A stretch of 64,000 nt of DNA from a bacterium (GTDB lineage: Bacteria; UBP6; UBA1177). The stretch spans positions 1 to 64,000 of the forward strand of contig JAFQZM010000031.1 of assembly GCA_017405875.1 (NCBI GenBank), read 5' to 3'. How positions within the stretch are numbered: the stretch's first letter is position 1; the number at the start of each line of letters is the position of its first letter. Below the pieces are notes generated by a model that worked only from the letters and a program-made list of their open reading frames with translations, had not been told where the DNA came from and searched no databases. The position numbers and the translations under genes were made by a program. This document shows, in pieces, positions 11,739 through 35,402 of the stretch.

Positions 11739-11752
11739 GAAACAAATTTTTT

Positions 11753-13229: not shown

Positions 13230-13245
13230 ATCGAAAACGCAAATT

Positions 13246-15514: not shown

Positions 15515-15527
15515 GCCGCGTGCCAGA

Positions 15528-15602: not shown

Positions 15603-15639
15603 TTTTTTTATGTCCTTTTTCAATCGAAATCCTTTGGTC

Positions 15640-15713
15640 GGCACCTTAGCCAAGAGGTAAGGCAGAGGTCTGCAAAATCTCCATCTCCGGTTCGAATCCG
15701 GAAGGTGCCTCCA
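15640..15713 (+). tRNA. tRNA-Cys (anticodon GCA)
   Basis: Cloverleaf with acceptor GGCACCT/AGGTGCC, anticodon loop CTGCAAA and encoded CCA. Confidence 0.96.
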
Positions 15714-15730
15714 TTTTCAAACTCATAACC

Positions 15731-15818
15731 GCCGGAGTGGCGGAATTGGTAGACGCAAGGGACTTAAAATCCCTCGGGATAACCTCCTGTACCGGTTCGA
15801 GCCCGGTCTCCGGCACCA
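15731..15818 (+). tRNA. tRNA-Leu (anticodon TAA)
   Basis: Class II cloverleaf of 88 nt with a long variable arm, acceptor GCCGGAG/CTCCGGC, anticodon loop CTTAAAA and CCA. Its 3' end marks the left edge of the accessory island, but I see no copy of it at the other side. Confidence 0.96.
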
Positions 15819-15955
15819 TTTACAGAACTTCGCAACAAGAATTTAACACCGTTTGCTGTTTTGTGCAGAAATCGCAAAATTTTTTTCGTCAAAAACCGCA
15901 CTTTCCGCAAAATTTATCCCAGATATTTAAGAAAAAACTCGAAATTTTTCTATTT

Positions 15956-16096: not shown

Positions 16097-18577
16097 ATGG
16101 ATCAGATATCAAGACTCAAAGCGGATTTCAAACGTGAAATACTAACATGTTTCCCTAAAAAAGCGCAGCAGGAAGGATCTGGAATACCATTGGGAACAAT
16201 TCTGCACAATATCGGCCATGCGAAAGCTGATATCAAACGAGCTTTTCCGCAGTACGAAATTCCTGAAAGCGACCGCAAAAACGAGAACAATAAATTCGAC
16301 TGGACGAAATTTTTCGCGGAACAGCTTCCTGAATTTACAGTAACTCACGAAAGATGGAAAGATGGAAAAAAAACAGATGTTTTAAGATACAATTATAAAT
16401 CAACAAACAACGACAAAGAGGAGGAACAAACTATGACAACCCAAACAGTTGAACAAACAGAAACAATCACCCCCGTCGACAAAACGAATCTGCCGAACAG
16501 AATCAAAACTCTGCTCAAATATTTGAACCAGAACCTTTACGGAAAGGAGGAAGCTGTCCGTCTCGCGCTTCTTTCCGCTGTTGCAGGCGAAAGTATTTTC
16601 TTTATCGGACTTCCTGGAACTGCAAAAAGCATGATCAGCCGACGGATTGCAGCTGCATTCAGCGATTTTTACAAGGACGGCAAGTTCAACACAGAAAACG
16701 GGGGATATTTTGAATATCTGATGAACGAATTTTCAACTCCAGATGAAATATGCGGTCCGGTCGATCTTTCGGCACTCAATGAAACACCGAGCCGCTATAC
16801 CCGCCAGACAAAAGGCTATCTTCCGAGCGCGAAAGTCGCATTTCTGGATGAAATCTGGAAAAGCGGTCCTGCAATCCTGAACACTCTTCTTACCATTGTA
16901 AACGAAAGGATTTTCCACAACGGAAGCGAAATCGAGAAAGTGCCTCTCATATCTCTCGCAGCGGCATCCAACGAACTTCCAGAGAAAAACCGCGGTCTTG
17001 AGGCGCTTTGGGACAGATTCATCCTGCGTGTATCGGTAAATCCGGTTTCAAAGGAAGAAGATTTTTTCAAAGTCGTAGATGACGGAAATACAGAAGTTAT
17101 ATCCACGGCAGAACTCACGGAAGTTCTTTTAAGCACCGCCGATGTCGAAAGCTGGCAACCGGAAATCAACAAAATAGAGCTCAGTAGTGAAGCAAAAAAT
17201 GTAATCACCGCTATCAGAAAAGAACTCACGTCATATAACAAAGACACAAAACACCAAGGTGACGAAAACTATTATATCTCTGACCGCCGCTGGAAAAAAA
17301 TAGTTCATCTCCTTAAAACAAGTGCGTTTCTTAACGGACGCGATTCTGTTGATCTTATGGACTGTTCACTTATTGAATACTGCATCTGGAATACCGACAA
17401 ACAGCAGAGTGAAGTTGGTAAAATTATTGAAAAAATCCTCGATCAGCATGGAATAACAGGTGTCGGGAACTCAATCGGCGATATTGTCGACAAGATTGAC
17501 GAATTCAAAGAAGCAGTTAACGAGAAATGGTTTGAGCATATTGTTGTGAAAGCTGTGGCAGCAAAACCCAAGCCTTATAAAATGAAAAATGGGACTTCTG
17601 CTTATAAGTTAATTTCACCAAAACAAATTCAAAGTTATAACTCTATAACACCCACATTTATCTCAGAACAATATCATCATCCTAATTATAATAGATTCGG
17701 GGCATATTTTACTTCAGATGGAGAGTTAATTGGAGATTACGACTATTATGTTAAAGAATTTAAACTTCAAGGAAACAAGGCTTGTTGGAAAGATGGATAT
17801 CGAGGTTATAACTATGAATTTGAAATTGAAACGACAACAGCTGTTCCTGCAAAAGATAAATGGGAACTCAAATTTTTTGAACCAGTTGCCAAAAAAACCA
17901 TAATGGAAGCCTTCGATAAAAAAGAATATATACCGCTTGCCAATCGGATCGATTCTGAAATCGCTGACTTGCAAAAATTCCGTGATGACAGTGCTGCTCC
18001 GTTTGAATCGAATGCTTTTGCTAAGCAGCGTTTCAGCGGGATCCTTTTGCAGCGGATTGATGACATAATACTTGATTTGAAAAAGAAAAAAGATGAACTT
18101 GAATCTCTCCGCACCAATTATGCAACGGACAAAAACATAGAATCAAAATTCGAGCTTTGCGATGCTATTATGAAAGACGGTACTTATAAGAATGCAAATG
18201 AGCAGAAAGACAACGAAAACATTCTTGCAAAAGTATGTCTAAAAGGCGATCGTGAAAATGTCGCTTTTGGCATGGCATGGGAAAACTTTGACAAGATGAA
18301 TTTTGATACGGCAAACAAATATGTTTCAAAATACGGCAAGGATTTTCCTGCACCCTATGATTCTGGCTGGATGCTTCCGACGATAGAACAATGGCAGCAG
18401 ATTTATGAAAATTCTCACAAGAAAAACGATTTTGATTTGTCTGGAAAATATTGGTCATCATCTAAGGATAAAAAACAGGGCGGTGTCTGGTATTTTAATT
18501 TTGATACCGGTGAAAAAGAGTGTACTTTGCCGTCGAACCAATATGGAATTGCTATCATCCGCAAACTGGCGCTGTAA
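16097..18577 (+). CDS. MoxR/RavA-type AAA+ ATPase with N-terminal wHTH-like and C-terminal Lcl-like domains
   Basis: 826 residues. Residues 1-105 look like an OST-HTH/LOTUS-type winged helix (IPLGTILHNIGHAKADIKRA, then KFFAEQLPEFTV), a fold usually linked to RNA binding; this call is tentative. The AAA+ core follows, with Walker A GLPGTAKS (171-178), Walker B FLDE (249-252) and RavA-like NERIFHNG and SDRRWKKIVHLLKTSAFLNG stretches. A coiled region precedes a C-terminal DUF1566-like lectin fold (GWMLPTIEQWQQIY, KYWSSS, VWYFNFDTGE). It pairs with the vWA gene immediately downstream, as RavA does with ViaA. A perfect AGGAGG before Met113 suggests a second, shorter product. Confidence 0.85.
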   Translation: MDQISRLKADFKREILTCFPKKAQQEGSGIPLGTILHNIGHAKADIKRAFPQYEIPESDRKNENNKFDWTKFFAEQLPEFTVTHERWKDGKKTDVLRYNYKSTNNDKEEEQTMTTQTVEQTETITPVDKTNLPNRIKTLLKYLNQNLYGKEEAVRLALLSAVAGESIFFIGLPGTAKSMISRRIAAAFSDFYKDGKFNTENGGYFEYLMNEFSTPDEICGPVDLSALNETPSRYTRQTKGYLPSAKVAFLDEIWKSGPAILNTLLTIVNERIFHNGSEIEKVPLISLAAASNELPEKNRGLEALWDRFILRVSVNPVSKEEDFFKVVDDGNTEVISTAELTEVLLSTADVESWQPEINKIELSSEAKNVITAIRKELTSYNKDTKHQGDENYYISDRRWKKIVHLLKTSAFLNGRDSVDLMDCSLIEYCIWNTDKQQSEVGKIIEKILDQHGITGVGNSIGDIVDKIDEFKEAVNEKWFEHIVVKAVAAKPKPYKMKNGTSAYKLISPKQIQSYNSITPTFISEQYHHPNYNRFGAYFTSDGELIGDYDYYVKEFKLQGNKACWKDGYRGYNYEFEIETTTAVPAKDKWELKFFEPVAKKTIMEAFDKKEYIPLANRIDSEIADLQKFRDDSAAPFESNAFAKQRFSGILLQRIDDIILDLKKKKDELESLRTNYATDKNIESKFELCDAIMKDGTYKNANEQKDNENILAKVCLKGDRENVAFGMAWENFDKMNFDTANKYVSKYGKDFPAPYDSGWMLPTIEQWQQIYENSHKKNDFDLSGKYWSSSKDKKQGGVWYFNFDTGEKECTLPSNQYGIAIIRKLAL
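16419..16435 (+). promoter_or_regulatory. Internal Shine-Dalgarno and start codon inside the RavA-like gene
   Basis: AGGAGG at 16419-16424 lies 8 bases before an in-frame ATG at 16433, exactly where the N-terminal wHTH-like domain ends and the ATPase begins. It is the best ribosome binding site of the gene. Confidence 0.55.
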
Positions 18578-18580
18578 ATT

Positions 18581-20617
18581 ATGATGAAACAAATTTCAGA
18601 TAAATCGCTGCATTTCAGCCATGTGGCATTAAAAGATCTTGAAGAAATTCTTAACGAAAAGCCCAATCTTCCGCAAATAAGCAAGATGAGTCAAAAGGAC
18701 ATCCGTTCTTTAAAAGACCAGATGAGGGGATTTTTCGAAGATGTAAAAAAGATCGGCTATAAAAATTTTTCATTTTTAGCTGACTGCAAGGATGTAAGAG
18801 ATTTTTTAGCCCACACAACAGGCGATATTTCAAATGAAGAGATTTTTGAGAACTTTAAAACATTCTTCAGCTTTGCAGACAAGGCAAAATCGGAACTCGA
18901 AGCCAATATCCGGCGGGCTTATTCCCAAAATAAGGAAATCCGCAAGTTCGAGAAATTCGGCTCATCAAATTTCGGTAATGAAATCGAGCGTAAAGCATTG
19001 ACTCAAAGCCTTGCCGACGCTTTTGACAATTCCATCGAAGATTCGGAAAAGCTGCCTTTTTCCAAAAATCAGGCGGCACAGGAAGCTGAAAAATTCCTGA
19101 GAACTGAAAATCAGGAGCAGAAAGAACTCCTTGATTTTGCTGCAAGTCATTCCCGGTTAAGCCAGCAGATTCAGGAAGAAATTCTCAAAACGCTGCAAAC
19201 TGCCTATGATGAAACAGAGATAACAAATCCCAAAAATCCGTTTTATGATGAGAATCTCTTTCTGCACAAAATGAATCAGCTTTCAGATGAGGAACTGCTT
19301 TCAACTCTTGCGGAACAAAAAAAGGAACTTAATAAAACCAAAACAGGCAAAAATAGTTCAGCAGACTTCGGTTTTTATGCAAAACAGTATGAAAAACTGA
19401 TTGAACCGGAGGAAAAAGAACCGGAAAAGAAAAAAAGCAAAGAATCAAAGCCGAAGAAAATCGATCCGCATGAACTTGAAATCCTTTCCCGAAATTTGAA
19501 AAAAGATCTGAACACTTCGCTGCACGAGCGTTACCTGGCATGGCAGCTTGAAGAGATAGACAAAAAAAGGAAAAAATATCTCAAAGAACTGTATGAAAAA
19601 ATCGCGCAGTTTAAGAAACTTGAGGAGCTTCTTTCGCCTTTCATCAGGAATTTCGGACGTTTATGGGATCTTTCAAAAACAGACTTCAACGATTACGGTT
19701 TTGATATCCTGAAAATGAAAGAATTTGCCGAACTGCTTAAAAACGACAAATCCCTGCAGGAACTGGCAGATTTGATAGGCAGACAGAACGGAGAGACCGA
19801 GCGTTATGAAAAAGAGCTGCGTGAAAAAATAGATATAAAAACAGAATTTCATCCGAAACCGGCATACCGCGGGCAAATTTCGGGAATACGCCTGAGCGGA
19901 GAAATTTCATCAGCCCTGCCCAGTGCGCTTGCCATGTCTGCTAATCCGAAGACAAAACCCTATTTCAACCTGCAAGTTACAGAAAAAAAACTACCTTCAT
20001 ACTCATACACCAACAGGCAGAAGTTTTACCGCGAAGAACGCGGAACAGAAGAAGTTGAAGTTCCGGTAAAAGAAAAGGAGCAGAAAGGTCCTGTCATCAT
20101 CTGCGTCGATACAAGCGGTTCGATGAACGGAACTCCCGAGCGCGTGGCAAAAACTATAACGTTCGCTCTTGCAAAAAAATGCTTGGAAGAAGAGCGCAAA
20201 TGTTATCTGATTTCATTTTCGACCGGAATCGAAGTGCAGGATTTGTCCGAATTTGAAAAAGGCAGCGGATTGCTTGAATTAGCAAAGTTTCTGCGAAAAT
20301 CTTTCAACGGCGGAACCGATGCAGAACCGGCTTTGCAGCATTCTCTGGCACTTTTACAGAAGAACGACTGGAAAAACGCCGATGTTCTTGTTGTAAGTGA
20401 TATGGTCATGGGAAATTTGTCGGAATCTGTTAAAACAAGCATCAAATCACAGCAGGTGAAAGAAACAAAATTCTACTCCCTGCTCGTGGGCAATTCGGGC
20501 AATAAAAACGTCATCGAAGTTTTTGATGAAAACTGGAGCTACGACATCAATTCGCGAGACGCAATGCGGCATTTAGTCAGACAGACTCACAAGCTGAATG
20601 AAATAAATAAGAACTAA
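18581..20617 (+). CDS. vWA-domain partner of the RavA-like ATPase (ViaA-like)
   Basis: 678 residues. A long, charged, largely helical N-terminal part (about 1-470) leads into a C-terminal von Willebrand A domain. The MIDAS motif DTSGSMNG starts at Asp510, with GGTDAEPAL and VVSDMVMG supplying the other metal ligands. This layout matches ViaA-type proteins that bind RavA/MoxR ATPases. The gene starts 4 bases after its ATPase partner, so they are cotranscribed. MoxR-vWA pairs act as chaperone-like machines and have also been found in predicted counter-invader systems. Here the island context favours the latter, as inference. Confidence 0.88.
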   Translation: MMKQISDKSLHFSHVALKDLEEILNEKPNLPQISKMSQKDIRSLKDQMRGFFEDVKKIGYKNFSFLADCKDVRDFLAHTTGDISNEEIFENFKTFFSFADKAKSELEANIRRAYSQNKEIRKFEKFGSSNFGNEIERKALTQSLADAFDNSIEDSEKLPFSKNQAAQEAEKFLRTENQEQKELLDFAASHSRLSQQIQEEILKTLQTAYDETEITNPKNPFYDENLFLHKMNQLSDEELLSTLAEQKKELNKTKTGKNSSADFGFYAKQYEKLIEPEEKEPEKKKSKESKPKKIDPHELEILSRNLKKDLNTSLHERYLAWQLEEIDKKRKKYLKELYEKIAQFKKLEELLSPFIRNFGRLWDLSKTDFNDYGFDILKMKEFAELLKNDKSLQELADLIGRQNGETERYEKELREKIDIKTEFHPKPAYRGQISGIRLSGEISSALPSALAMSANPKTKPYFNLQVTEKKLPSYSYTNRQKFYREERGTEEVEVPVKEKEQKGPVIICVDTSGSMNGTPERVAKTITFALAKKCLEEERKCYLISFSTGIEVQDLSEFEKGSGLLELAKFLRKSFNGGTDAEPALQHSLALLQKNDWKNADVLVVSDMVMGNLSESVKTSIKSQQVKETKFYSLLVGNSGNKNVIEVFDENWSYDINSRDAMRHLVRQTHKLNEINKN

Positions 20618-20699
20618 TCAGCTTTCCCAAAAAATTTGTCAAAAATCTCTTCTTCTTTAAAATTACGCAGTTTTTTAATCACTTTTTACGAGGTTGGAG

Positions 20700-21557
20700 A
20701 TGAGCGACAACAATTCGGGAGAAAAAAAGATTTTTTCCGGCAAGGAAATGCGTGACCGTATTGAAACTGTTCTTGCCTTTTTAAACCGTAATCTGCGAGG
20801 CAGAGAGGAAGCAATCAACCTTTCGCTGCTTTCGGCTGTTGCTGCGGAAGACATTATTCTTTCCGGAAGATCCGACAACGACAAAAAACTTATTCAGTTC
20901 TCTATCCAAAGTGCGTTTAAAGATTATTACAGCCATGATCAGTTTGCCCCCCGGTCGTCAGAATACGGCATTGATTCTTTATTCCGTATGGAAAACTCGT
21001 CGGAAGCAGATCCCTATAAAGCTGCGGAAAATAATGAAGATTGGGTCCTTAATGTCGAGGTAAAACCGGTTTCGGATGACGACGATTTTTTCAACTTCGT
21101 AAACAGTCCCAGCTTCGAGACAATCCCGAATCCCGATAAAGAACAAAAAGCCGCACTGCTTACAATAAAGGAAGTAAAAGAGTGGCAGCCGGTAATCGAC
21201 AGGGTCGAACTGAGCGAAGAAGCCAAAAGTGTCATTTCAGAAATCAGAAGAAAGTGCTTCGAGTTCTATGTAAGTGACTCCCGCTGGAAAAGAATCGTCC
21301 ATGTTCTCAAAACCTGCGCTTTCCTGAACGGCAGAAGCAAAGTCGATCTCATCGACTGTCTGCTTATCGACTACGCGATCCCGAACCGTTTTGTCGAAGA
21401 GATTCTGAAACGGCATGCAGTTGAGAGCAAACTGGACGGCAAACAGCACGCACAATACAAAGCAAACATATTTACACGCCAGAAATACTACGAAATCCTC
21501 AAGGCTTCCATCGACGATAAAAAACTCGAATTGGAACACAAGAAAAAGTTGTACTAA
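20700..21557 (+). CDS. RavA-like pseudo-ATPase (AAA+ core deleted)
   Basis: 285 residues, clearly homologous to the RavA-like protein at 16097: RIETVLAFLNRNLRGREEAI matches RIKTLLKYLNQNLYGKEEAV, and VSDSRWKRIVHVLKTCAFLN matches its lid region. The Walker A position reads SGRSDNDKK instead of GLPGTAKS. The segment carrying Walker B and the sensors is missing without loss of frame. It cannot be a normal ATPase and is more likely a regulatory or structural subunit of the same complex. Start chosen at ATG 20700 with GAGG upstream; an in-frame TTG at 20694 is less likely. Confidence 0.82.
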   Translation: MSDNNSGEKKIFSGKEMRDRIETVLAFLNRNLRGREEAINLSLLSAVAAEDIILSGRSDNDKKLIQFSIQSAFKDYYSHDQFAPRSSEYGIDSLFRMENSSEADPYKAAENNEDWVLNVEVKPVSDDDDFFNFVNSPSFETIPNPDKEQKAALLTIKEVKEWQPVIDRVELSEEAKSVISEIRRKCFEFYVSDSRWKRIVHVLKTCAFLNGRSKVDLIDCLLIDYAIPNRFVEEILKRHAVESKLDGKQHAQYKANIFTRQKYYEILKASIDDKKLELEHKKKLY

Positions 21558-22081: not shown

Positions 22082-22318
22082 ATGTCAAAAAAAGATTTAC
22101 GAGACTCATTAAAACGAATTTTTATCGGTTACAGAAAAATGACTCCTCAGATTGAGTCATCTTTGCTTACGCTTGGGATCGAAATCGGTCGCAAACAGAA
22201 TCATGTTGTCCTGCTTATTGTCGGGGCTTCAGGCAAACATTCGGTTCCAATCAGCAGCACAGGAAGCGACAAGCGCGAAGGCTTGAATATCGTTACAAAA
22301 ATTATGAGACTTTTTTAA
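22082..22318 (+). CDS. Small protein, unknown (possibly HicA/dsRBD-like fold)
   Basis: 78 residues with a strong GGAGGG site. It is the first gene of the operon running to 29964 and ends 10 bases before the next start. The order helix, GIEIGRKQNHVVLLIVGASG, strand, then a final helix (REGLNIVTKIMRLF) loosely recalls HicA/dsRBD-like folds, but key residues are not convincing and I do not assign a family. Confidence 0.65.
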   Translation: MSKKDLRDSLKRIFIGYRKMTPQIESSLLTLGIEIGRKQNHVVLLIVGASGKHSVPISSTGSDKREGLNIVTKIMRLF

Positions 22319-22328
22319 AGGAGGAAGA

Positions 22329-24536
22329 ATGCGCATACTTATAGTAATTCACGGCTATCCGCCCTTTTATATGGCAGGTTCCGAGGTCTACACCTACAAT
22401 CTTGCAAGAGAACTTGCGAAAACCAACGATGTTTTCGTGTTTCACCGCATAGAAGAGACAACAGAACCGCTTTATCAAGTTACTGACACAACTAAAGATA
22501 GAGTAAATATCCGCTATATCAACAATTATGAGCCGGATAACGCGACATTTTATGACAAATATTTGAATCCTGTTGTTGATGACGCATTCCGCGATTATGT
22601 AAAACTTATTCAACCTGATGTTGTCCATGTCGGCCACTTGTCGCATCTTTCAACACAGATCCCGATTATTGCAAAAATGGAATTCGGACTTCCGGTTCTG
22701 TTCACGATTCATGATTTCTGGATGTTCTGTCACCGCGGTCAGCTGATAAATCCGAAAGACTGGCAGATCTGCCCTCTGCCGAATATCAGCCAATGCACTG
22801 AATGCGCCGCTTTTCACTACAAAAAACCCGATTTCAGCACAGAACTTATAAAAGAGCGCGACGAGCATATACGCAATGTTCTTGACTGCATAGACGTGTT
22901 TTTCGCTCCTTCGCATACTTTGGAAAAATTCTGTATTGATATGGGTGTCGAACCGGAAAAAATCTTTTATTCAAAATACGGGTTCAACACTTCCAATATT
23001 CAAAAACATCCAAAATTACTGCACGAAAAGATCACTTTTGGTTTCATGGGGCGCATAATCCACACGAAAGGAGTCCATCTTCTGTGCGAAGCTTTCAGCA
23101 AAGTACAGGGTAATACCGGACTTGTGATCTGGGGCGATACAGAGAGTGAATACGGTGAAAATTTGGTCAAAAAATATTCCTGTGAAAACATCGAATTCAA
23201 GGGAGCCTATCACAACGACAAATTACAGGAAGTCCTTGATTCTTTTGATGTTCTTGTCTGCCCGTCGATCTGGCTCGAAAACGCTCCGCTTGTAATTCAG
23301 GAAGCCCAGGCAGCCGAAATTCCTGTTCTGGTGAGTGACAAAGGCGGAATGGCGGAACTTGTCCACGACGGAATCGACGGCTTTACGTTCAAACTCGGAG
23401 ATACGGATGATCTGCGCTCCAAAATGCAGGATATTGTTGATGATCCGCAGAAGCTGCTTAAGTTGAAAACTCCGATAGAAAAAGTCCGTTCCATGAAAGA
23501 TGATGCCGCTTTCTGCATTCAGAAATACTCGGAACTGTCAAAGAAAAAAGTTACTTACCCCCACCGCCCGGCACCGTGGAGAGTGACTTTCATCACGAAT
23601 CCCGACAAATGCAACCTTCACTGCAAAATGTGTGACACCTTTTCTGCCGACAACCGCATCAGGCTGAAAAAATCCAGTCGTCCGGAGATGGATTTCGCCG
23701 TTATCGAAAAGACCGTGAATCTTCTTGCTCCGCACGGACTCAAGGAAATTATCCCATCAACAATGGGCGAGCCGCTTTTGTATTCGAACTTCGAAGATCT
23801 GATAGAGCTGTGCCGCAGGAACAACATAAAAATGAACCTCACTACAAACGGAACATTCCCGCAAAAAGGCGTGGATTTCTGGGCTCCGAAACTTTTGGAG
23901 GTGATTTCCGATGTGAAATTCAGCATCAACGGGATAAATCCTGAAATAAACGAAAGTATCATGTGCGGAATCGACACCGGAAAGCAGCTGCGGAACATCA
24001 AACGTTATCTTGATCTTCGCAAAGAACTCGGCAAGAACAGCACAGTCACGCTTCAGTGCACCTTCATGAAGTCCAACCTTTACGAACTGAAGAACATCAT
24101 TCTCTGGGGAATCGAACACGGTGTCGACAGGATCAAAGGGCATCATTTGTGGAAAACGGCTGATTCTTTAGAAAGCGAAATGCTCAGAACCAAGGAAAAC
24201 GCTCCGCTTTGGAATGCTGTCTGCGAAGAATGTCATAAAATTGCCGACGGCAGAATAAGACTTGAAAACTTCACTCCAGTCGATTTGAACGAACCGGCCC
24301 TTGATTCAAGCGACACAATATGTCAGTTTCTCGGAAAAGAACTCTGGATAGAATACGACGGCTCTTACCAGATTTGCTGCTGTCCCGATGAAGTGCGCAG
24401 AGAGTTCGGAGATTTCGGCAATGTCGCGGAACTTTCCCCGCTTGAAATGTGGAACGGCAGGAAATACCGCGACTTTATTGCGAACTGGGGAGAGAGTGAA
24501 AACTGCAAAAAATGCAATATGAGGAGGAAAAGATGA
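22329..24536 (+). CDS. Glycosyltransferase family 4 fused to a radical SAM/SPASM enzyme
   Basis: 735 residues in two parts. Residues 1-400 are a GT4-type glycosyltransferase: HGYPPFYMAGSEVYTYNLAR at the N-terminus, FGFMGRIIHTKGVHLLCEAF, and the nucleotide-sugar motif APLVIQEAQAAEIPVLVSDKGG. Residues 415-735 are a radical SAM enzyme with cluster cysteines C428, C432 and C435 (CNLHCKMC), STMGEPLLY as the GGE-like strand, and a C-terminal SPASM-type auxiliary cluster region (YQICCCPDE, NCKKCNMRRKR). The fusion suggests one pathway that both glycosylates and radically modifies a product. The substrate is unknown. The SPASM end raises a peptide or a sugar as possible targets. Confidence 0.88.
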   Translation: MRILIVIHGYPPFYMAGSEVYTYNLARELAKTNDVFVFHRIEETTEPLYQVTDTTKDRVNIRYINNYEPDNATFYDKYLNPVVDDAFRDYVKLIQPDVVHVGHLSHLSTQIPIIAKMEFGLPVLFTIHDFWMFCHRGQLINPKDWQICPLPNISQCTECAAFHYKKPDFSTELIKERDEHIRNVLDCIDVFFAPSHTLEKFCIDMGVEPEKIFYSKYGFNTSNIQKHPKLLHEKITFGFMGRIIHTKGVHLLCEAFSKVQGNTGLVIWGDTESEYGENLVKKYSCENIEFKGAYHNDKLQEVLDSFDVLVCPSIWLENAPLVIQEAQAAEIPVLVSDKGGMAELVHDGIDGFTFKLGDTDDLRSKMQDIVDDPQKLLKLKTPIEKVRSMKDDAAFCIQKYSELSKKKVTYPHRPAPWRVTFITNPDKCNLHCKMCDTFSADNRIRLKKSSRPEMDFAVIEKTVNLLAPHGLKEIIPSTMGEPLLYSNFEDLIELCRRNNIKMNLTTNGTFPQKGVDFWAPKLLEVISDVKFSINGINPEINESIMCGIDTGKQLRNIKRYLDLRKELGKNSTVTLQCTFMKSNLYELKNIILWGIEHGVDRIKGHHLWKTADSLESEMLRTKENAPLWNAVCEECHKIADGRIRLENFTPVDLNEPALDSSDTICQFLGKELWIEYDGSYQICCCPDEVRREFGDFGNVAELSPLEMWNGRKYRDFIANWGESENCKKCNMRRKR

Positions 24537-24610
24537 AAATCCTCAAGCTTGTATTGCCACTGCAAAATATGACATATCAAAATCTGATAAAAATTTATTA
24601 TGAAAATTAA
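24533..24610 (+). CDS. 25-residue ORF coupled to the radical SAM gene
   Basis: The ATG overlaps the TGA of the preceding gene (ATGA) and has a strong GAGGAGG site. The peptide is MKILKLVLPLQNMTYQNLIK plus five residues (IYYEN). It may be a real small peptide, even a substrate of the radical SAM/SPASM enzyme, or the stump of a lost gene. The sequence cannot decide. Confidence 0.35.
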   Translation: MKILKLVLPLQNMTYQNLIKIYYEN

Positions 24611-24622
24611 GGAGATTAGAGA

Positions 24623-26074
24623 ATGAAACAGTTTGAAATCATACAATCAATGAAAGAAAATGTATTCCCCAAGTCAACCGGCCTTAATGTGGCTCTGCTC
24701 ATAGGCTCATGCGCAAGAGGAACTCTCACTGCGAAATCCGATATAGACATCTCGCTTTGGATTGACAAAGAACTTTTTGATGTAGACAAATTCATATCAT
24801 TGTTAAAAGAGTTCGTTGGTGGCATAAAAAAAATTCTTCCGGTAGCAATGCGCGGGAAAATTGCTGTTTATTTTTCGGATTGTCCAAAGATGGAACTGCT
24901 AATTTTTTCAACAATTGACGGGCTTGACAGACATTTTCTCGGTTCGGAAATAGAAAACCGGCTGGAAAATGTTTTATTTTCAAAAGACGGAAGTACGAAA
25001 GAAAAACTTTTATCTCATTTAAATGCAATCCTTTTGCAAAAAAAAGAGAAGGCTCCTTATGAAAAAGAGAGAATTGTCAGAGAACTTGCCGACAGATTTC
25101 TCTATGAATTTGAAAATGCCTCCTCCAAGCACAAAAGAAGTGACAGTTATAAGTTTTATTTTGACTACAATATCGCCTTTCAGATAGCCGTACAACTTTC
25201 TTATATTGCTCGCGGAAGTATGGAACATTATTACCTGCCTAAGAACTTTTCAAACGGCATGAGCAATGAAAAAAAAGAGGAATTTATATCCCTTGCCGGC
25301 TCATTGGATCTTCAGGAAGCCAATAAGAAAAAAAGATTGCTCCTTGATTTTTTCTATGAAGCGATACAAAACTGCAATATTCATTCAAAAGCAGAAACTG
25401 ACAACATTAAAGAGTTCCTTGAATCGGTGTATAGCCGTGATTATATTTGGAATTTCAGAGACATTTCTCTTTTTTGCAAACATTGCAAAAGCGGATTGGT
25501 TTTCCGTTCCTCAAGTTTTACCAGATATCAGCATGATAAATCGGTTTTTGAATCTGTGATCAAACAATACAAAATCAATTTGATAGTAGATCTGCGTGAA
25601 GACAAAGAATTAGAAGGAAACTCTTATGACAAAGAAATATTAGAAACTCACGGCATCAGATATCTTAATCTTGCAATCGATACAAAACGCCCGTTAATAA
25701 ATTTTGCAGACAACTTGCGGCTTGACATGGAAAAAGAATATCGCTGGTTTGCTGTCGGAAACAAGGATTTCTTTAACAACCTTTTTACTCAAATAAATCC
25801 TGAAAAAGATGTAATGATGATCCACTGTTTTGCAGGGAAAGATCGTACAGGTTGTGTCTGTGCACTGATAGAACTCCTTGCCGGAGAATCGAAAAATACT
25901 GTAGAAACTGATTATCTTGAAAGTGAAATGGACAGTAAGATCGAATACATAAGAGCATTTATTGATGCGATTGATGAATGCGGAGGAGCTGAAAAATTTT
26001 TGTTGTCCTGCGGCATTCCTGCTGAAACAATCGATCTTTGGAAAAAAACTATAAAAAACAAAGAGGTGCGATGA
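24623..26074 (+). CDS. Nucleotidyltransferase-tyrosine phosphatase fusion
   Basis: 483 residues. The N-terminal domain is a Pol-beta-type minimal nucleotidyltransferase with GSCARGTLTAKSDIDIS, the metal-binding acidic pair being Asp40 and Asp42. A helical middle region follows. The C-terminal 190 residues form a protein tyrosine/dual-specificity phosphatase-like domain with DLREDKEL and the P-loop HCFAGKDRTG (Cys402, Arg408). One polypeptide thus both transfers nucleotides and removes phosphates, either as a modify/reverse pair or in consecutive steps on a small molecule. The stop overlaps the next start (ATGA). Confidence 0.87.
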   Translation: MKQFEIIQSMKENVFPKSTGLNVALLIGSCARGTLTAKSDIDISLWIDKELFDVDKFISLLKEFVGGIKKILPVAMRGKIAVYFSDCPKMELLIFSTIDGLDRHFLGSEIENRLENVLFSKDGSTKEKLLSHLNAILLQKKEKAPYEKERIVRELADRFLYEFENASSKHKRSDSYKFYFDYNIAFQIAVQLSYIARGSMEHYYLPKNFSNGMSNEKKEEFISLAGSLDLQEANKKKRLLLDFFYEAIQNCNIHSKAETDNIKEFLESVYSRDYIWNFRDISLFCKHCKSGLVFRSSSFTRYQHDKSVFESVIKQYKINLIVDLREDKELEGNSYDKEILETHGIRYLNLAIDTKRPLINFADNLRLDMEKEYRWFAVGNKDFFNNLFTQINPEKDVMMIHCFAGKDRTGCVCALIELLAGESKNTVETDYLESEMDSKIEYIRAFIDAIDECGGAEKFLLSCGIPAETIDLWKKTIKNKEVR

Positions 26075-26676
26075 ATAACTTTTTAAGCGAAGTCCGGAAA
26101 ATCAAAAATCCTGGCCGTGAAAAAATTGCCGTTTTAATTCGGCATGGTGAACGTGAAAACATACCGGAAGGAACTTTCGGAAACGAAATTCTCCTGACAG
26201 AAAAAGGGAAACATGATTCAACGGAACTTGGGAAACAGCTTGCTGCTTATCGAATTAACAAAATTTTTACCAGTCCCGTCAAACGTTGTGTGCAAACTGC
26301 AGAGATGATAAAAAAAGGTTTGAGACAGGATGTTAAGATAATTCTTTCGAACCAGCTTGGGAATCCCGGATTTCATATTTCTAACGGACATACAGCCGGA
26401 AAAGCTTTTTTGGATTACGGATGTTTCGGAGTTTTCGAACGATTCTTACACAACGAGAATATCGAAGGTGTTGCCGACGCAAATTCTCTTAGAACCGACG
26501 CGGTCAACTGGCTGTATAAAGAAACTCAGGAAAATGGTCTGACCTTGTTTATAACACATGACTCGTTGATTGCTCATTTCGCATTCGCAAACAACATAAG
26601 AGAATATTCTCCCGACAATTGGGTCGATTTTCTGGATGGTATAATATTAAATTTTTCAGAGGGAACGAAAAAGTGA
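26071..26676 (+). CDS. Histidine phosphatase family protein
   Basis: 201 residues of the phosphoglycerate mutase-like fold. The catalytic RHGE motif is in VLIRHGERENIPEG, followed by LLTEKGKHDSTELGKQL, the FTSPVKRCVQTAEMI segment with its Arg, and a late THDS histidine. It is the second phosphatase in this operon. The ATG at 26071 overlaps the previous stop and has GAGGTG upstream. Its substrate is likely a small phosphorylated metabolite of the pathway (inference from context). Confidence 0.88.
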   Translation: MNNFLSEVRKIKNPGREKIAVLIRHGERENIPEGTFGNEILLTEKGKHDSTELGKQLAAYRINKIFTSPVKRCVQTAEMIKKGLRQDVKIILSNQLGNPGFHISNGHTAGKAFLDYGCFGVFERFLHNENIEGVADANSLRTDAVNWLYKETQENGLTLFITHDSLIAHFAFANNIREYSPDNWVDFLDGIILNFSEGTKK

Positions 26677-28340
26677 AACCTACTCTTGCACTTTACGGAA
26701 TAAAAGACCGCAACAACACAAAATATCCGGCTTTCGTTCACGATCACAATCTCTGTCTCATGCAGGACGGGAAAATTATTCAGTACCTGCAGCTGGAACG
26801 CTACACGCGGCGGAAGTATGACAACCGTTTGGATCTCTTCATTGAAGAACTGGCGGAGAATCGAATTATTGATCTCCCCGAAGATTTTGACTTCGTGTGC
26901 GTCAATGATTTTACCGGAAACGCTTTCATTTCCTCTGGCGGAAGATGGCATTTCGAGTCTGATTTCCGGGAAACGCTTTCACCCGAACTGATTCCGGCGC
27001 GCGCTTACCTGAACGATGCCGGCGGTTTCGGTGGAAAAGAGTTGCCGGCTTTCTGCTGCCCGCACGAAATCGCACATATTTTTTCCGCTGTTCCTTTTTA
27101 CGGAGAGTTTAGGGAAAACAGTCTTCTCGTTTCTTTTGACGGGGCTTCAAGCCTTGGAAATTATTCAGCATTTTTGTATCAAAACGCTAAATTGACGCTT
27201 GTTGAAAACAATTGGTCGGATTTAGGTTTTGCCTCAAAATTTTTCAACGACAACAAACTTTCCTTTCTTATGCTTGGCGCAGAACAGGCCGAGCATTGCT
27301 CCGTTCCCGGGAAACTCATGGGGTTTGCAAGTTGGGGAAAGTATGATCCTGAAATTGAAATCTGGCTCCGTGAAAACGACTTTTTCAACCGCTACAATAA
27401 TTTCAGCGGAAGCGGAATCCTTGATTCAATCAGGAAGCGCTTCGGTGATGTCTGTTCCGGCTTTGATACTCACAACGCTTTCTTGCAGGATTGTGCGGCA
27501 ACCTTACAGCATATTTTTGAAAATGCAGTGCTTGAAAAACTCACTTCTCTTCAGGAAAAATTTCATGCCGATTACCTCTATTACGGCGGCGGTTGCGCAC
27601 TAAACATCGTTACGAACACGAAAATCGTCGAAAGCGGTCTCTTCAAGGATGTGTTTATCGCTCCCTGCTGCAATGACAGCGGCCTAAGCATGGGTGCTGC
27701 CGCATTTATGGAAATACAGAAAGGAAACAAAATTCAATTTCACAATCCATATCTCTGCAATGCAGGACTTTCAGAAACAGAATATGAAGTTTCGGATTCT
27801 GAAATAAAGGCAACAGCAGAACTTCTTATGCAGCACAAAATTGCAGGGATCTGCAACGGAACAGCGGAAACCGGTCCCCGCGCTCTCGGGAACAGAAGCC
27901 TTGTCGCTCTTGCCGACAGCAGAGAACTGGCTCAGAAAATTAGTATGGAAGTAAAAAAACGCGAATGGTATCGTCCGGTTGCACCGATTATGCTGCTTGA
28001 GAATGCAAAAACCGTTGTCGAACAGAAAGTGTCATTTCTCGCCCGTTTTATGCTTCAGGACTTCACTGTCAAAAACGGATACCGTGAAAAAATGGCCGGA
28101 GTGGTTCATGCGAACAACACTGCGAGGATACAGACTGTTGCGGACAAATCAGAAAATCCGTTTATGTTCCGCCTTCTTTCTTTTCTGCATGAAAAATACG
28201 GAGTCAATGCGCTTATCAACACATCTTTCAATGCACAGGGCGAACCGATAGTCCATACTGCGCAGCAGGCTTTACAGTCAGCGAAAAAAATGAAACTTGA
28301 TGGAATAGTGATTAACGGAAAATTGGAGGTTTTAAGATGA
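26673..28340 (+). CDS. Carbamoyltransferase, NodU/CmcH family
   Basis: 555 residues. The N-terminal half has the ASKHA-type domain with CCPHEIAHIFSAV (metal-binding His) and FDGASSLGNYS. YYGGGCALNIVTNTK, ETGPRALGNRSLVALADS and the C-terminal NTSFNAQGEPIV motif are diagnostic of the family. These enzymes transfer carbamoyl from carbamoyl phosphate to hydroxyl groups of sugars or antibiotics, through carbamoyl-AMP. GTG at 26673 is used as start because it overlaps the previous stop (GTGA) and AGAGGG lies 9 bases upstream. Confidence 0.9.
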   Translation: MKPTLALYGIKDRNNTKYPAFVHDHNLCLMQDGKIIQYLQLERYTRRKYDNRLDLFIEELAENRIIDLPEDFDFVCVNDFTGNAFISSGGRWHFESDFRETLSPELIPARAYLNDAGGFGGKELPAFCCPHEIAHIFSAVPFYGEFRENSLLVSFDGASSLGNYSAFLYQNAKLTLVENNWSDLGFASKFFNDNKLSFLMLGAEQAEHCSVPGKLMGFASWGKYDPEIEIWLRENDFFNRYNNFSGSGILDSIRKRFGDVCSGFDTHNAFLQDCAATLQHIFENAVLEKLTSLQEKFHADYLYYGGGCALNIVTNTKIVESGLFKDVFIAPCCNDSGLSMGAAAFMEIQKGNKIQFHNPYLCNAGLSETEYEVSDSEIKATAELLMQHKIAGICNGTAETGPRALGNRSLVALADSRELAQKISMEVKKREWYRPVAPIMLLENAKTVVEQKVSFLARFMLQDFTVKNGYREKMAGVVHANNTARIQTVADKSENPFMFRLLSFLHEKYGVNALINTSFNAQGEPIVHTAQQALQSAKKMKLDGIVINGKLEVLR

Positions 28341-29035
28341 ACTGGCGTGAAATAAAAGATGATCAAACTGAAAAACGGTTTTATTTTAACGGGGAGCCCC
28401 TTTTCAAACAGTTCAAGTCGCTTCTCAAATTCCACGAACCGGGACTCGCACCTGTTGAGGATGAAAGCGGCTGGTATCATATTGATGTCAACGGAAATGA
28501 AATATATCCGGAACGTTACGAGCGGACTTTCGGTTTCTACTGCAATCGTGCTGCAGTAACATCAAAAGAGGGTTGTTTTCACATCGGAACGGACGGAAAA
28601 TCGGCATATTCCGAACGATATGCATGGTGTGGAAATTTTCAGGAAAACATCTGCACTGTCCGTGACAAAAACGTCAACTATTTTCACATTGATACGGACG
28701 GGAAGCGGCTTTACAAGGAAAACTATCTTTATGCCGGTGATTTCCGCGACGGAATTGCCTGCGTAAAATGTTCCGACGGTTTTTGGCGGCATATAAAGGC
28801 AGACGGCACTTTTCTGAACTCAAAAGGCTTTCTGGATCTGGGAGTTTTCCACAAAAATATCGCTCCAGCCCGTGACGAAAATGGCTGGTTTCATTCGGAT
28901 GTCAGAGGCGAACCTCTTTATGCCGAGAGATATCTGAACATTGAACCGTTCTACAACGGATTCGCCCTGGTAACGAATTTCGACTGGTCAAAAAAAATAA
29001 TCAACGAAAAAGGTGAGGTGATCTTATGTCTTTAA
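28337..29035 (+). CDS. WG-repeat protein
   Basis: 232 residues made almost wholly of about 35-residue WG-type repeats, each with an F/W-x-H-I-D/G-x-x-G-x-x-x-Y pattern: GWYHIDVNGNEIY, CFHIGTDGKSAY, YFHIDTDGKRLY, FWRHIKADGTF and GWFHSDVRGEPLY. WG repeats form small beta sheets that usually serve in binding. There is no signal peptide, so it is cytoplasmic. The ATG overlaps the end of the carbamoyltransferase gene and its own end overlaps the next gene. Its position in a tight biosynthetic operon suggests a scaffold or substrate-binding role. Confidence 0.85.
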   Translation: MNWREIKDDQTEKRFYFNGEPLFKQFKSLLKFHEPGLAPVEDESGWYHIDVNGNEIYPERYERTFGFYCNRAAVTSKEGCFHIGTDGKSAYSERYAWCGNFQENICTVRDKNVNYFHIDTDGKRLYKENYLYAGDFRDGIACVKCSDGFWRHIKADGTFLNSKGFLDLGVFHKNIAPARDENGWFHSDVRGEPLYAERYLNIEPFYNGFALVTNFDWSKKIINEKGEVILCL

Positions 29036-29964
29036 AAAACAAAAAAATTCTGGTAACAGGCGCACTAGGCTTCATCGGACGCACACTTTTGGAGACTTTA
29101 ATCGAACAAGACTGCGGTGCGGAACTTTACGGAATCGATATAAAAAAGTTCCCTGAAAATGCCGAAAAACTGAGATCCGTTCATTTTGAGAATATCGACA
29201 TCAGGGATGAAGATAAAATCAAATCATATATCCGCAAAAACCACTTTGACGGGATCGTGCATCTTGCAGCCGTAAGCCGTGTTGCGGTAGCGGAAGAAGA
29301 CAAAAAGAAATGCATTGACACGAACTACAAGGGAACAAAATATATTGCCGAAGCCGTAAGTGAGAATCCCGATTCATGGATGATTTTCGGAAGCAGCCGC
29401 GAAGTTTACGGTGAACAGGAAAAATTTCCTGTTTCAGAGGATGCGGAACTCCTTCCGTTAAACATTTACGGATTCTATAAACTTGAAGGAGAACGGATCG
29501 TTCGGGGAAATGTAAAAAAGCACGTTATCCTCCGTTTTTCGAATGTTTACGGCAATGAATATGATATTCCGGAACGTGTGATTCCAAAATTTACAGCAAC
29601 TGCCCTTGAAGGCGGCGAGCTGGTTCTGGAAGGCGGCGAACAAATAATAGATTTCACTCATATAGATGACACAGTTTTTGCAATTATCCAATGCATGTCG
29701 GCACTTGAAAAAAACGAAATTATGCAGAAAACGATGCATATCCTTCCAGGAATAGGCCGCAATATTACCGATATAATTGATATTTTGCGTAGCAACGGAT
29801 TGAATTTTTCGGTAAAACGGAATGCTCCACGCAGTTATGATGTCCAAAAATTCATAGGAGACTCAAAAAAATGTAGAGATTTTTTAAAAGGTATCTCTTT
29901 TACGGACTTGGAAACAGGAATCCAGAAATTAATCGAAATCTACCAATCGAAAAAAAGAAAATGA
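29026..29964 (+). CDS. NAD-dependent epimerase/dehydratase (extended SDR)
   Basis: 312 residues of the extended short-chain dehydrogenase family. The nucleotide-binding motif is TGALGFIG near the N-terminus, HLAAVSRVAVAEE and SSREVYGEQ follow, and the YGFYK pair (YxxxK) gives the catalytic Tyr and Lys. Such enzymes act on nucleotide-activated sugars. It overlaps the WG-repeat gene by 10 bases and ends the operon that begins at 22082. Together with the GT4 and carbamoyltransferase genes it points to a carbamoylated, glycosylated product. Confidence 0.9.
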   Translation: MSLKNKKILVTGALGFIGRTLLETLIEQDCGAELYGIDIKKFPENAEKLRSVHFENIDIRDEDKIKSYIRKNHFDGIVHLAAVSRVAVAEEDKKKCIDTNYKGTKYIAEAVSENPDSWMIFGSSREVYGEQEKFPVSEDAELLPLNIYGFYKLEGERIVRGNVKKHVILRFSNVYGNEYDIPERVIPKFTATALEGGELVLEGGEQIIDFTHIDDTVFAIIQCMSALEKNEIMQKTMHILPGIGRNITDIIDILRSNGLNFSVKRNAPRSYDVQKFIGDSKKCRDFLKGISFTDLETGIQKLIEIYQSKKRK

Positions 29965-32204: not shown

Positions 32205-35200
32205 ATGACTAAAATCCTAGGAAAATACGAGATAATCAGTGAAGAATCAGGAACTCTTAAAATCGCGCGATACAACGATTGTGATTACCGCATAGAGATC
32301 GTGCCTAAGACCTCGGCAAGCGGTAAATACTCCAATATCGCAAAAAACATCAACCTAGTTTCACACCAGAACATCAGCAACCTTAAGATCGAAGAAGATG
32401 ACAGAAACTTCTATTTTGTCGACAAGAATTTCGACGAAGGATATTCCGAATTGAAACCTGAATGGTTCGGTTCGAACTATGTTTCGCTCATAAAATGCTA
32501 CCAGCAGATCGTCGATGCTGTAGAGTATATTCACCAGAAAGGTTTTTACCACGGTAATATCAATCCTAAGAACATATTGATCGACAGAGAAGATCATGCC
32601 TATCTGCTCGATTTCGGCAGATGCTACATCTATGCGATGATGAACGGTTCGCCGGACAAGCGCTTCTATGCTCCGGAACAGAGAGCCTTAAACGAATGCC
32701 GCAAAGAAAGTGATATATACTCGCTAGGGCTTTGCATGCTCGACCTTTTGCTTGAGTCGCACTTCGATTCCTTTAAATTCTCGGAGACTTACAAAGATTT
32801 CGATTCTCTGGAAGAAATATACAGGTGCATTGCTGAACATGAAGAGCAGCTTGATAAAACGAATGCTGAACTGCTAATCATCATAAAAGCGATGCTGAAC
32901 GCTGATCCGGAAGAGCGCATAAAACTGCTTGATGTCCGCAGAAAACTCAACGATTTGCTGAGAGAGATCATGCCCAACAAGACTTTCGGCATTCAAATAG
33001 GCGGTCGCGTGCTTGAAAAATGGAGAGAAAACCACGATTGTGAACAGTATGTCGAAAAAGAGGACATTAGGGAAAGAATCGAAGATTACCGCGCCTATTT
33101 GGAGTTCGGAAAAGACAAAAGCGACCGCGATGAAATAAAGATCGCTATCGGAGATCTGACATTCTGCTGTTCCGCAAAAGAAAACAGTCATTATTTTTTC
33201 TGCTTTGGTATTCTCGAAAGTCCTTCCAAAACAGAACTCCTGCAAAAATACGGGCTTCCGACAGACGACATGTTCAAAATACTCGGCCCGAACGAACATG
33301 ACTGGAGCTGCGATGATGCAGGAAGCGTGATCGAGAAATTAAAAGAGCGCTACGAGCAGAAAAAACGCGAAAACGAGCGTTATGAAACTGACTCAAAAAG
33401 CATTGCAACTGAAGAGGAACTGCTGAAAGCGGAAAAAAGGACTATAGATGAAAAAAAGAACACCAGAAAAGTGATCCTGAAGGAATTGAACCGCGGTGAT
33501 GACACTTTGACGTTGGAATATATTATAGACAAAGACGAGAACAAATCCGAAAACTATACGACGGAAAATACTAGAGAAAACATTCCTTCCGAAAAAGATT
33601 TCAAACAGAAACAGGACGTTCTCCTGCAGGAGAATCTGAAGTCAGATGAAGTCCTCAAAGGTGTCGTGGAGAGATCTGAATCGGGCTTTTCCGTGACTGT
33701 AAAAGTGGGAAAATACGAAGTCGCGAAATATGCCGATGATCAAAAAAAAGAATTTCATCTGGAAAAAGGTGCGGAATACTTTCTGAGCTATGATTATCAG
33801 GCGGAAGAAGCCGTCTGGACCAAGAAAGACTGTGCTCTTTATCAGCTGCAGAACGGCAACGTATACATTCACAACTTCCTTAGAAAGATAAACCGGCCTC
33901 AGGAATTCATAAAAAACGATCTGATCGATGTAGAAAAGTTCTACAACACCAGCCTTGACGAAAATCAGCAGCTTGCGGTCCGGAAAGCCTTGTCTCTGGA
34001 TGACAAATGCGAACTGATGGTACTGCAGGGTCCTCCCGGAACAGGAAAGACCGTGACTATAACCGAGATAGTTACCCAGCTTTTAAAAACGCGGCCCCAC
34101 GAGAAAATACTTGTAGCGTCCCAGAGCAATCAGGCGGTTGACAATGTTCTGGAAAAGATCTGCGGCATCGAAGACAAGATCCTCCGCATCGGAAACGATG
34201 AGACGAAAATCAGCAAAACAGCGCAAAATTACCTGCCGCACAAAGTGCTGAACAAAATAATTCAGGACAACATAAAGCGTATAGACGGAAACTCCGTCTC
34301 GCACACGAACGAGGGAATACAAAATAAGATGACGGAACTGCAAAAAGACTTCAGGGAACAGTTGCAGCACATAACTTCCCAAATGGGAAACAACAGCAAA
34401 AATGGAGAAACAAACAAAGAAACCGAATTAGCTGCGCTTTTCACGCAGAATATCAGGCTCGTTTTCGGCACTTTGATCGGCATTTCATCATGGAAAAGTT
34501 TCAGAGAGATCGTTTTTGACACCGTGATCGTGGACGAGGCCGGAAGAGCCACTCTTAGCGAACTGCTCGTTCCCTGCATCAAAGCGAGAAAACTGATACT
34601 TGTCGGCGACCACAAACAGCTTGCACCGGTCATTGACGATGATGTGCTCGAAAAGATCAAAGACAGGGACGAAGCCAAAACTTCGTTCTTTCAGCGGGTG
34701 TTTGAGCGTATTCAGAATGCAGACAGACCTAATCTGCTTCATACGCTGAACCACAACTACCGCTCTGAAAGCAGAATCTGCGATCTGTATAACATACCCT
34801 TCTACAACGGCGAACTGAAGACAACCGATGCTGTAAACGCTCAAAAGAAACATTCTCTCAGCTTCAGATCAAGCGTCGTCTGGTACGACACCGGAATGCT
34901 GCCCGATAAGGAAGACGAACAGGAAGGAACCGGAAAAATAAACCGCTGCAACGCATCTGTTATCGAGAAAACATTGAGGCGGATCCAAACGGAGATGAAA
35001 AACTGCGGAATGAACTACGACATCGGAATAATCACGCCGTATAAGGCTCAGGCGGCGGCATTGCGCAAAAAACTCGCTGTAAAGAAAAATTTCGCAGAGT
35101 GCAGCATAGAGATCGGAACGGTCGACAGCTTCCAGGGAAGCGACAGGGACATCATCATCTATGACTGCGTAAGATCCGGAAAGTTGAAGGGCAAAGCGAA

Positions 35201-35402
35201 GATAGACTTCATCGCAGATGAAAAACGTCTAAATGTATCGCTGTCGAGAGCAAAAAAGCTCTTGATCATCGTGGGTGACATGGACTTTCTTTATCAAGCC
35301 AAAGTCTCCGACAAAAATAATCCGTTCGAAAACATTATCGAATATATCAACCAAAACAAAGAGTCTTATGAAGTGATCAAGTTGGGAGAAAAACATGACT
35401 GA
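32205..35402 (+). CDS. Protein kinase-like domain fused to a superfamily 1 (Upf1/Dna2-like) helicase
   Basis: 1065 residues. Residues 1-270 resemble a Ser/Thr protein kinase: the DFG motif (Asp136) is intact, but the catalytic loop reads HGNINPKN (116-123), with Asn where the catalytic Asp of HRDLKPEN should be. It may be a pseudokinase. After a coiled, charged linker the helicase starts near 560, with Walker A GPPGTGKT (609-616), SQSNQAVDNVL, DEAGRATLSEL (motif II), GDHKQLAPV (III), the late VDSFQGSDRDIIIYD (V) and LNVSLSRAKKLLIIVGD (VI). It overlaps the PLD gene by 8 bases, so the two products probably work together, as helicase-nuclease pairs do in anti-phage systems. Confidence 0.87.
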   Translation: MTKILGKYEIISEESGTLKIARYNDCDYRIEIVPKTSASGKYSNIAKNINLVSHQNISNLKIEEDDRNFYFVDKNFDEGYSELKPEWFGSNYVSLIKCYQQIVDAVEYIHQKGFYHGNINPKNILIDREDHAYLLDFGRCYIYAMMNGSPDKRFYAPEQRALNECRKESDIYSLGLCMLDLLLESHFDSFKFSETYKDFDSLEEIYRCIAEHEEQLDKTNAELLIIIKAMLNADPEERIKLLDVRRKLNDLLREIMPNKTFGIQIGGRVLEKWRENHDCEQYVEKEDIRERIEDYRAYLEFGKDKSDRDEIKIAIGDLTFCCSAKENSHYFFCFGILESPSKTELLQKYGLPTDDMFKILGPNEHDWSCDDAGSVIEKLKERYEQKKRENERYETDSKSIATEEELLKAEKRTIDEKKNTRKVILKELNRGDDTLTLEYIIDKDENKSENYTTENTRENIPSEKDFKQKQDVLLQENLKSDEVLKGVVERSESGFSVTVKVGKYEVAKYADDQKKEFHLEKGAEYFLSYDYQAEEAVWTKKDCALYQLQNGNVYIHNFLRKINRPQEFIKNDLIDVEKFYNTSLDENQQLAVRKALSLDDKCELMVLQGPPGTGKTVTITEIVTQLLKTRPHEKILVASQSNQAVDNVLEKICGIEDKILRIGNDETKISKTAQNYLPHKVLNKIIQDNIKRIDGNSVSHTNEGIQNKMTELQKDFREQLQHITSQMGNNSKNGETNKETELAALFTQNIRLVFGTLIGISSWKSFREIVFDTVIVDEAGRATLSELLVPCIKARKLILVGDHKQLAPVIDDDVLEKIKDRDEAKTSFFQRVFERIQNADRPNLLHTLNHNYRSESRICDLYNIPFYNGELKTTDAVNAQKKHSLSFRSSVVWYDTGMLPDKEDEQEGTGKINRCNASVIEKTLRRIQTEMKNCGMNYDIGIITPYKAQAAALRKKLAVKKNFAECSIEIGTVDSFQGSDRDIIIYDCVRSGKLKGKAKIDFIADEKRLNVSLSRAKKLLIIVGDMDFLYQAKVSDKNNPFENIIEYINQNKESYEVIKLGEKHD

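Follow-up and report, generated by a model that had tools for sequence, protein, structure and literature searches.

The six genes that run in a single direction through positions 22329-29964 of the window (the whole 64,000-nucleotide stretch analyzed here, on contig C24 of the 2.51-Mb genome of a gut bacterium from an uncultured genus) probably represent one variant within a family of modular biosynthetic cassettes that spread horizontally, this one yielding a small molecule that is glycosylated and carbamoylated; they have a core in common with the Undecim Cluster of phage WO from Wolbachia. The operon itself is real, mobile, and modular, and it is neither an artifact nor a capsule cluster. 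Its genes encode, in order, a GT4-radical SAM/SPASM fusion (GT4-rSAM), a nucleotidyltransferase-tyrosine phosphatase fusion (NTase-PTP), a histidine phosphatase, a carbamoyltransferase, a WG-repeat protein, and an SDR (Table 1). Among its relatives, the constant core is the GT4-rSAM fusion plus a specialized WG propeller-like protein, usually with a sugar-nucleotide enzyme, and the other genes are exchanged around it.

Table 1. Features of the operon and its surroundings (positions in the window)
Feature	Position	Strand	Basis
tRNA-Gly, tRNA-Cys, tRNA-Leu genes, island edge	15528-15818	+	ARAGORN
orf78, outside the unit	22082-22318	+	No homologue in any other locus
Conserved unit	22318-29921	+	DNA homology to sister genome G005, where the flanks are unrelated
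GT4-radical SAM/SPASM fusion, 735 aa, first gene of the unit, WD0613 homologue	22329-24536	+	Pfam Glycos_transf_1, Radical_SAM, SPASM
Exchanged segment	24535-26121	+	NTase-PTP in the window and G005; 219-aa unclassified protein in G014 and G004
NTase-PTP fusion, 483 aa, Pol-beta-type nucleotidyltransferase plus PtpB-like tyrosine phosphatase	24623-26074	+	Y_phosphatase3 7e-27, Polbeta 1e-5
Histidine phosphatase, branch 1, 201 aa, RHG and THD motifs	26071-26676	+	His_Phos_1 5e-13
O-carbamoyltransferase, NodU/TobZ family, 555 aa, GTG start	26673-28340	+	Carbam_trans_C 2.5e-50, Carbam_trans_N 3e-24
WG-repeat protein, 232 aa, propeller-like, no apparent signal peptide	28337-29035	+	WG_beta_rep 2e-10
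SDR, NAD-dependent epimerase/dehydratase, 312 aa, WD0612 homologue	29026-29964	+	Epimerase 1.5e-43
Mokosh type I, neighbor, not part of the operon (MkoA 32205-35402, MkoB 35395-36729)	32205-36729	+	PADLOC MkoA 5.6e-200, MkoB 2.2e-54

The limits of the unit were set by DNA comparison with related genomes. Against the sister genome G005, blastn returned two blocks (22318-24530 and 24611-29921, 91-92% identity) and no match beyond them; all six genes are present there in unchanged order, with 83-95% protein identity, at a different genomic position between enolase/alanine racemase/RsgA genes on one side and an arylsulfotransferase gene on the other. The left edge at 22318, which falls at the GT4-rSAM ribosome-binding site, was found again against G014 and G004. 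The gene-neighborhood search proposed in a preliminary description of this DNA recovered the same order in G005 and altered versions in other phyla, and because an identical set lies elsewhere in G005 while shortened or altered sets occur across phyla, the grouping is not due to chance. The same description placed orf78 at the head of the operon, a role that we ruled out because homology begins just behind this ORF, which is without relatives at other loci; it is separated from the GT4-rSAM gene by 10 bp, and an unlike small ORF occupies its position in G005 and G014. Of the seven enzymes originally counted, then, five enzymes and the WG propeller-like protein are left. The tight overlaps are likewise a partial description: ATGA junctions occur at the histidine phosphatase and WG genes and a GTGA junction at the carbamoyltransferase gene, but 86 bp precede the NTase-PTP gene and the SDR gene overlaps its neighbor by 10 bp.

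The operon does sit in an island, as had been supposed. Homology between the window and G014 spans 15191-15821 and is then interrupted up to 22318, which places the operon in a variable stretch after the tRNA genes. The adjacent Mokosh type I system (MkoA protein kinase-helicase, MkoB PLD-like) looks complete, lies 2.2 kb past the operon, and is found likewise in G004. The stretch at 16097-21557 carries a bpMoxR ATPase with a C-terminal Lcl_C/DUF1566-like domain and a VWA protein, and MoxR occurs there a second time at 20694-21557 as a degenerate copy reduced to the AAA lid; a bpMoxR homologue is also close to the related operon in the Planctomycetota locus L068. Elsewhere in the window, two 178-aa ORFs (2951-3487 and 8922-9458) probably represent a duplication, since the surroundings of both match a single G014 segment, and two large tandem proteins with Pfam Beta_propel (PF09826) domains are encoded at 54735-60754.

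Direct evidence for exchange comes from within the genus. Homology between the window and G014 ends at 24534 and restarts at 26122, at about 93% identity; between these points the NTase-PTP gene is swapped cleanly for an unrelated gene. The 219-aa replacement protein has no Pfam match and, on the strength of a DWDT motif, may resemble a GT-A glycosyltransferase. The G004 unit lies in the same island as that of the window, flanked by bpMoxR/VWA genes and, at its opposite end, by Mokosh. It encodes GT4-rSAM, the 219-aa protein, a histidine phosphatase-O-methyltransferase fusion, and WG, with neither carbamoyltransferase nor SDR. Four of the 15 genomes of the genus that were searched carry the WG gene.

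Relatives extend well beyond the genus. A carbamoyltransferase scan of genome contigs gave seven further loci outside it, namely, five in Bacteroidia/Bacteroidales MAGs (two of them named yak omasum), one in a MAG labeled Alphaproteobacteria, and one in a Planctomycetaceae genome, and further loci in Bacteroidota and Planctomycetota came from GT4-rSAM and WG profile searches. In all, 24 loci were found, including Bacteroidales, Planctomycetota, an Arsenophonus plasmid, and two viral contigs. The two core genes are tightly linked: GT4-rSAM adjoins WG or shares a short operon with it in 23 of the 24 loci, the exception (L036) starting at a contig end. The WG family at E ≤ 1e-40 occurs exclusively in GT4-rSAM/WG loci (about 1,075 genomes searched with WG), and, of 393 genomes from a single order, 4 encode GT4-rSAM at E ≤ 1e-150, each time next to WG. 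Gene trees of the two proteins agree broadly, with conflicts at L050, L055, and L071 whose support is too low for the trees by themselves to establish recombination.

The sets around this core vary in size. L050 has GT4-rSAM, histidine phosphatase, WG, and SDR and lacks a carbamoyltransferase; the smallest chromosomal set, L055, holds GT4-rSAM (34% identity), WG (55%), and a histidine phosphatase. Some related loci have no SDR. Both viral contigs (IMG/VR) emerged from the GT4-rSAM scan, a pattern search for WG in viral contigs having returned none and a carbamoyltransferase search of them a single distant match: L084 carries GT4-rSAM and WG, and L085 carries GT4, rSAM, PTP, an O-methyltransferase-like protein, and WG. 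The L085 set (10260-13930) adjoins an apparent tyrosine recombinase gene, which suggests carriage by a Bacteroidota mobile element. Two genome bins contain two unlike versions each (L050 and L034 in G063; L033 and L051 in G062), which could be two loci or bin contamination.

What varies follows a pattern. A phosphatase is present in 20 of the 24 loci, drawn from several unrelated lineages (PTP, and histidine phosphatase types sharing only 25-30% identity among themselves), which suggests that the pathway requires dephosphorylation. P-loop kinases, thymidylate-kinase-like proteins, NTases, additional radical SAM proteins, and an APH kinase appear in some loci. A carbamoyltransferase is found in 14 loci and an O-methyltransferase in 5, and no locus has both (hypergeometric chance of about 0.01 for the first 22 loci, with relatedness ignored). 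Fusions recur as well: WG is joined to an O-methyltransferase in WO and Arsenophonus and to a P-loop kinase in L069, and PTP is joined to an NTase in the window and to a kinase in L070. By standard reasoning, these fusions and that of histidine phosphatase to O-methyltransferase in G004 indicate that the fused activities probably serve one intermediate. The WG-P-loop kinase fusion (L069 9505-10824, Planctomycetota) was not among the fusions that we found described.

All domains named in the preliminary description were borne out by Pfam, and their active-site motifs are intact. In GT4-rSAM, residues E317x7E, C428xxxC432xxC435, and SPASM C665, C683, C684, C726, and C729 are invariant among eight diverse members that include the WO protein; no close solved relative that would fix the chemistry was found for the radical SAM domain. 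The NTase domain match is weak (25.8 bits against a cutoff of 26.9), but its GS..SDID motif is intact; the PTP domain has the motif HCFAGKDRTG, with PtpB as its closest solved structure. The AF2 model of the NTase-PTP fusion (pLDDT 49) is too poor for use. With both Carbam_trans domains and intact catalytic motifs, the carbamoyltransferase has the features expected of a NodU/TobZ-type O-carbamoyltransferase; HExxH, GGGCALN, GPRALGNR, and D336 (alignment numbering) are invariant across 10 orthologues, and 7xb6 and TobZ are its solved relatives. From such domains and motifs, the set would be able, as had been proposed, to build, carbamoylate, and dephosphorylate a sugar-containing molecule. Neither an exporter, a resistance gene, nor a recognized precursor is present at 22329-29964, which speaks against a biosynthetic cassette, as does the lack of a recognized phosphatase within the WO and Arsenophonus clusters.

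The WG protein is homologous to Wolbachia WD0614 over the latter's N-terminal half, and identities across phyla are 43-92%. A search of PDB sequences found no relatives. Its AF2 model is of high confidence (pLDDT 94.9), and the best Foldseek matches are beta-propellers, e.g., BamB and designed eight-bladed propellers; with TM scores of about 0.5-0.58 and high rmsd, we describe it as propeller-like and do not assign it to a known propeller. In five WG repeats, histidine stands where canonical repeats have Tyr, Phe, or Ile (WGYID in Oscillatoria and FGFID in this genome); four of the five are invariant in 17 sequences, and the fifth is Tyr in two. The protein may well be a scaffold that binds an intermediate.

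These observations suggest how the cassette would work. The SDR would supply a modified nucleotide sugar, which the GT4 domain would couple to an acceptor, small and probably phosphorylated; the radical SAM/SPASM part of the same protein would then rearrange or oxidize the bound glycoside. The NTase, or kinases elsewhere, would add phosphoryl or nucleotidyl groups that PTP and the histidine phosphatase later take off, i.e., cryptic handles, and the carbamoyltransferase would cap a hydroxyl with carbamoyl, a step for which the O-methyltransferase would substitute at other loci. The WG protein would hold the intermediate and gather the tailoring enzymes. Both the individual reactions and the small-molecule nature of the product are inferred. 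A further-reaching reading, which we consider possible and put forward tentatively, is that the family is a new combinatorial biosynthetic class in which a cytosolic WG propeller with conserved histidines is the dedicated carrier or scaffold for the GT4-rSAM core, functioning much as carrier proteins or RiPP recognition elements do, with enzymes plugged in and exchanged around it and with phages and islands spreading it from rumen bacteria to Wolbachia.

The biological role could be anti-phage defense through the metabolite made, a proposal that is compatible with the chemistry of a biosynthetic cassette. It draws on neighborhood: Mokosh type I adjoins the operon here and in G004, type I restriction-modification genes lie within several kilobases of L067 and L053/L054 and DNA methyltransferases within a similar distance of L071, and the cassette is carried by viral contigs and phage WO. 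Yet islands gather defense genes anyway, and this setting would equally fit any island cargo; the core enzymes match no PADLOC system model and give weak superfamily matches only, and the WO and Arsenophonus settings are symbiotic, which argues for a use broader than defense. We therefore think a defensive role unlikely.

Alternatively, the WG protein itself might be the acceptor, with GT4 glycosylating it and the radical SAM domain, carbamoyltransferase, and phosphatases tailoring the glycan, so that the product would be a modified macromolecule. The WG protein is always present, and in 99 distant pairs it is more conserved than GT4-rSAM (mean identity 48.8% versus 38.6%, WG being higher in 88%); we also counted in its favor the histidines at five repeat-equivalent positions, where canonical repeats have aromatic or aliphatic residues. 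However, no particular Ser/Thr site stands out, and the fusions of WG to an O-methyltransferase and to a kinase suit a scaffold better than a consumable substrate, making this alternative quite doubtful. Least probable is a cassette modifying surface glycans (LPS, capsule, or exopolysaccharide), as proposed for the Undecim Cluster: SDR, GT4, and carbamoyltransferase genes are frequent in such pathways, and exopolysaccharide or LPS has been suggested for WD0611-0613 and WD0620 (PMC9203015, PMC4701759), but the operon stands alone, has a single committed glycosyltransferase and no flippase, polymerase, or ligase, and includes a cytosolic scaffold, a combination with kinases and NTases that is atypical of surface-glycan loci, and its flanks in G005 are enolase, alanine racemase, and arylsulfotransferase genes, so the earlier judgment that this is not a capsule locus holds.

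Returning to the biosynthetic cassette, comparison with known systems places it more closely. Like the NodU/NolO, TobZ, and GdmN enzymes, its carbamoyltransferase has the two-domain fold and catalytic motifs, but at ~28-30% identity to plasmid-borne NodU/NolO-like proteins it falls into a separate group that goes with the GT4-rSAM/WG core. The NodU equivalog score is 139 bits against a 1000-bit cutoff and the operon has no nod genes; on these grounds, together with the G005 flanks, we ruled out identity with an O-antigen or nodulation cluster.

Cryptic phosphorylation occurs in nucleoside and aminoglycoside antibiotic pathways. The cassette resembles these in its radical SAM domain, kinases/NTases, phosphatases, and carbamoyl or methyl capping, and in the threonine-aldolase/SHMT and 2OG-oxygenase genes of some loci; it differs in that the operon has no identified nucleoside- or cyclitol-forming gene and in its WG scaffold, which lacks a counterpart there. 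The aminoglycoside-like AGAB cluster of R. buchneri is also an antibiotic-like gene set in an intracellular symbiont, but its genes and locus differ, and identity with it was ruled out (PMC8770908).

The Arsenophonus plasmid cluster (CP132902, CP132904, and CP132908) is closer: SDR, GT4, rSAM, and a WG domain are consecutive, and our proteins match at 45-47% (WG) and 38% (SDR). It is unlike the operon in having GT4 and rSAM as two ORFs, a WG-O-methyltransferase fusion, and PhyH plus SHMT, in having neither carbamoyltransferase nor phosphatase, and in adjoining panBCE. In L059 (CP132904, 3286-12897), panB, panC, and panE lie directly ahead of SDR/GT4/rSAM/WG, indicating that this cluster travels with a vitamin pathway.

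The nearest described system is the Undecim Cluster, eleven genes (WD0611-WD0621) described by Bordenstein and Bordenstein (PMC9203015); Baldridge et al. had noticed its genes earlier, including the KWG-methyltransferase fusion, and reported possible synteny in Desulfovibrio, Haliangium, Capnocytophaga, and Saprospira (PMC4701759). Homologues occur on Rickettsia plasmids and in Cardinium and Phycorickettsia. Full-length GT4-rSAM matches WD0613 (38% over 778 columns, e-167, with the invariant motifs in common) and the SDR matches WD0612 (33%, 2e-41); a WG search of phages matched one record, phage WO (WD0614, 46% over 226 aa). The statement in the preliminary description that no pathway of this composition had been described must accordingly be narrowed: the WD0612-WD0614 core lies in the Undecim Cluster, whose gene functions a 2025 paper still terms unknown (PMC12801941). 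Apart from the Wolbachia papers, our literature search for WG with rSAM and glycosyltransferase found nothing.

The two systems share adjacent SDR, GT4-rSAM, and WG genes, horizontal movement, and tight overlapping genes. The Undecim Cluster alone has the WG-O-methyltransferase fusion, PhyH, threonine aldolases, an ABC exporter, and a sugar transporter, and no recognized phosphatase lies within it; its PhyH dioxygenase, threonine aldolases, and exporter are typical of small-molecule pathways, which we counted in favor of a biosynthetic cassette. UDP-glucose dehydrogenase, PhyH, ABC, threonine aldolase, and WG-O-methyltransferase fusion genes are absent from 22329-29964, so the full Undecim set is not present there, and no phage WO genes were recognized around the operon among the annotated ORFs of the window, where the island has Mokosh and bpMoxR genes instead. 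Histidine phosphatase, NTase-PTP, and carbamoyltransferase belong to the operon alone, and its SDR is the last gene rather than preceding GT4-rSAM.

The Undecim Cluster ranks with the best-conserved cargo of phage WO, is reported to be expressed at a high level, and has lately been seen in duplicate in an obligate strain. Our results go further by defining the core, by tracing it to rumen bacteria and other bacteria that are not symbionts and to viral contigs other than WO, by showing that methyl and carbamoyl caps alternate, and by giving direct evidence of cassette swapping. The six-gene operon and sets of only three or even two genes thereby become expressible and assayable in laboratory hosts, which Wolbachia does not permit, and an Undecim-type core in non-symbiotic bacteria separates the constant genes (GT4-rSAM and WG) from the interchangeable ones (methyl/carbamoyl cap, kinase/NTase, and phosphatase).
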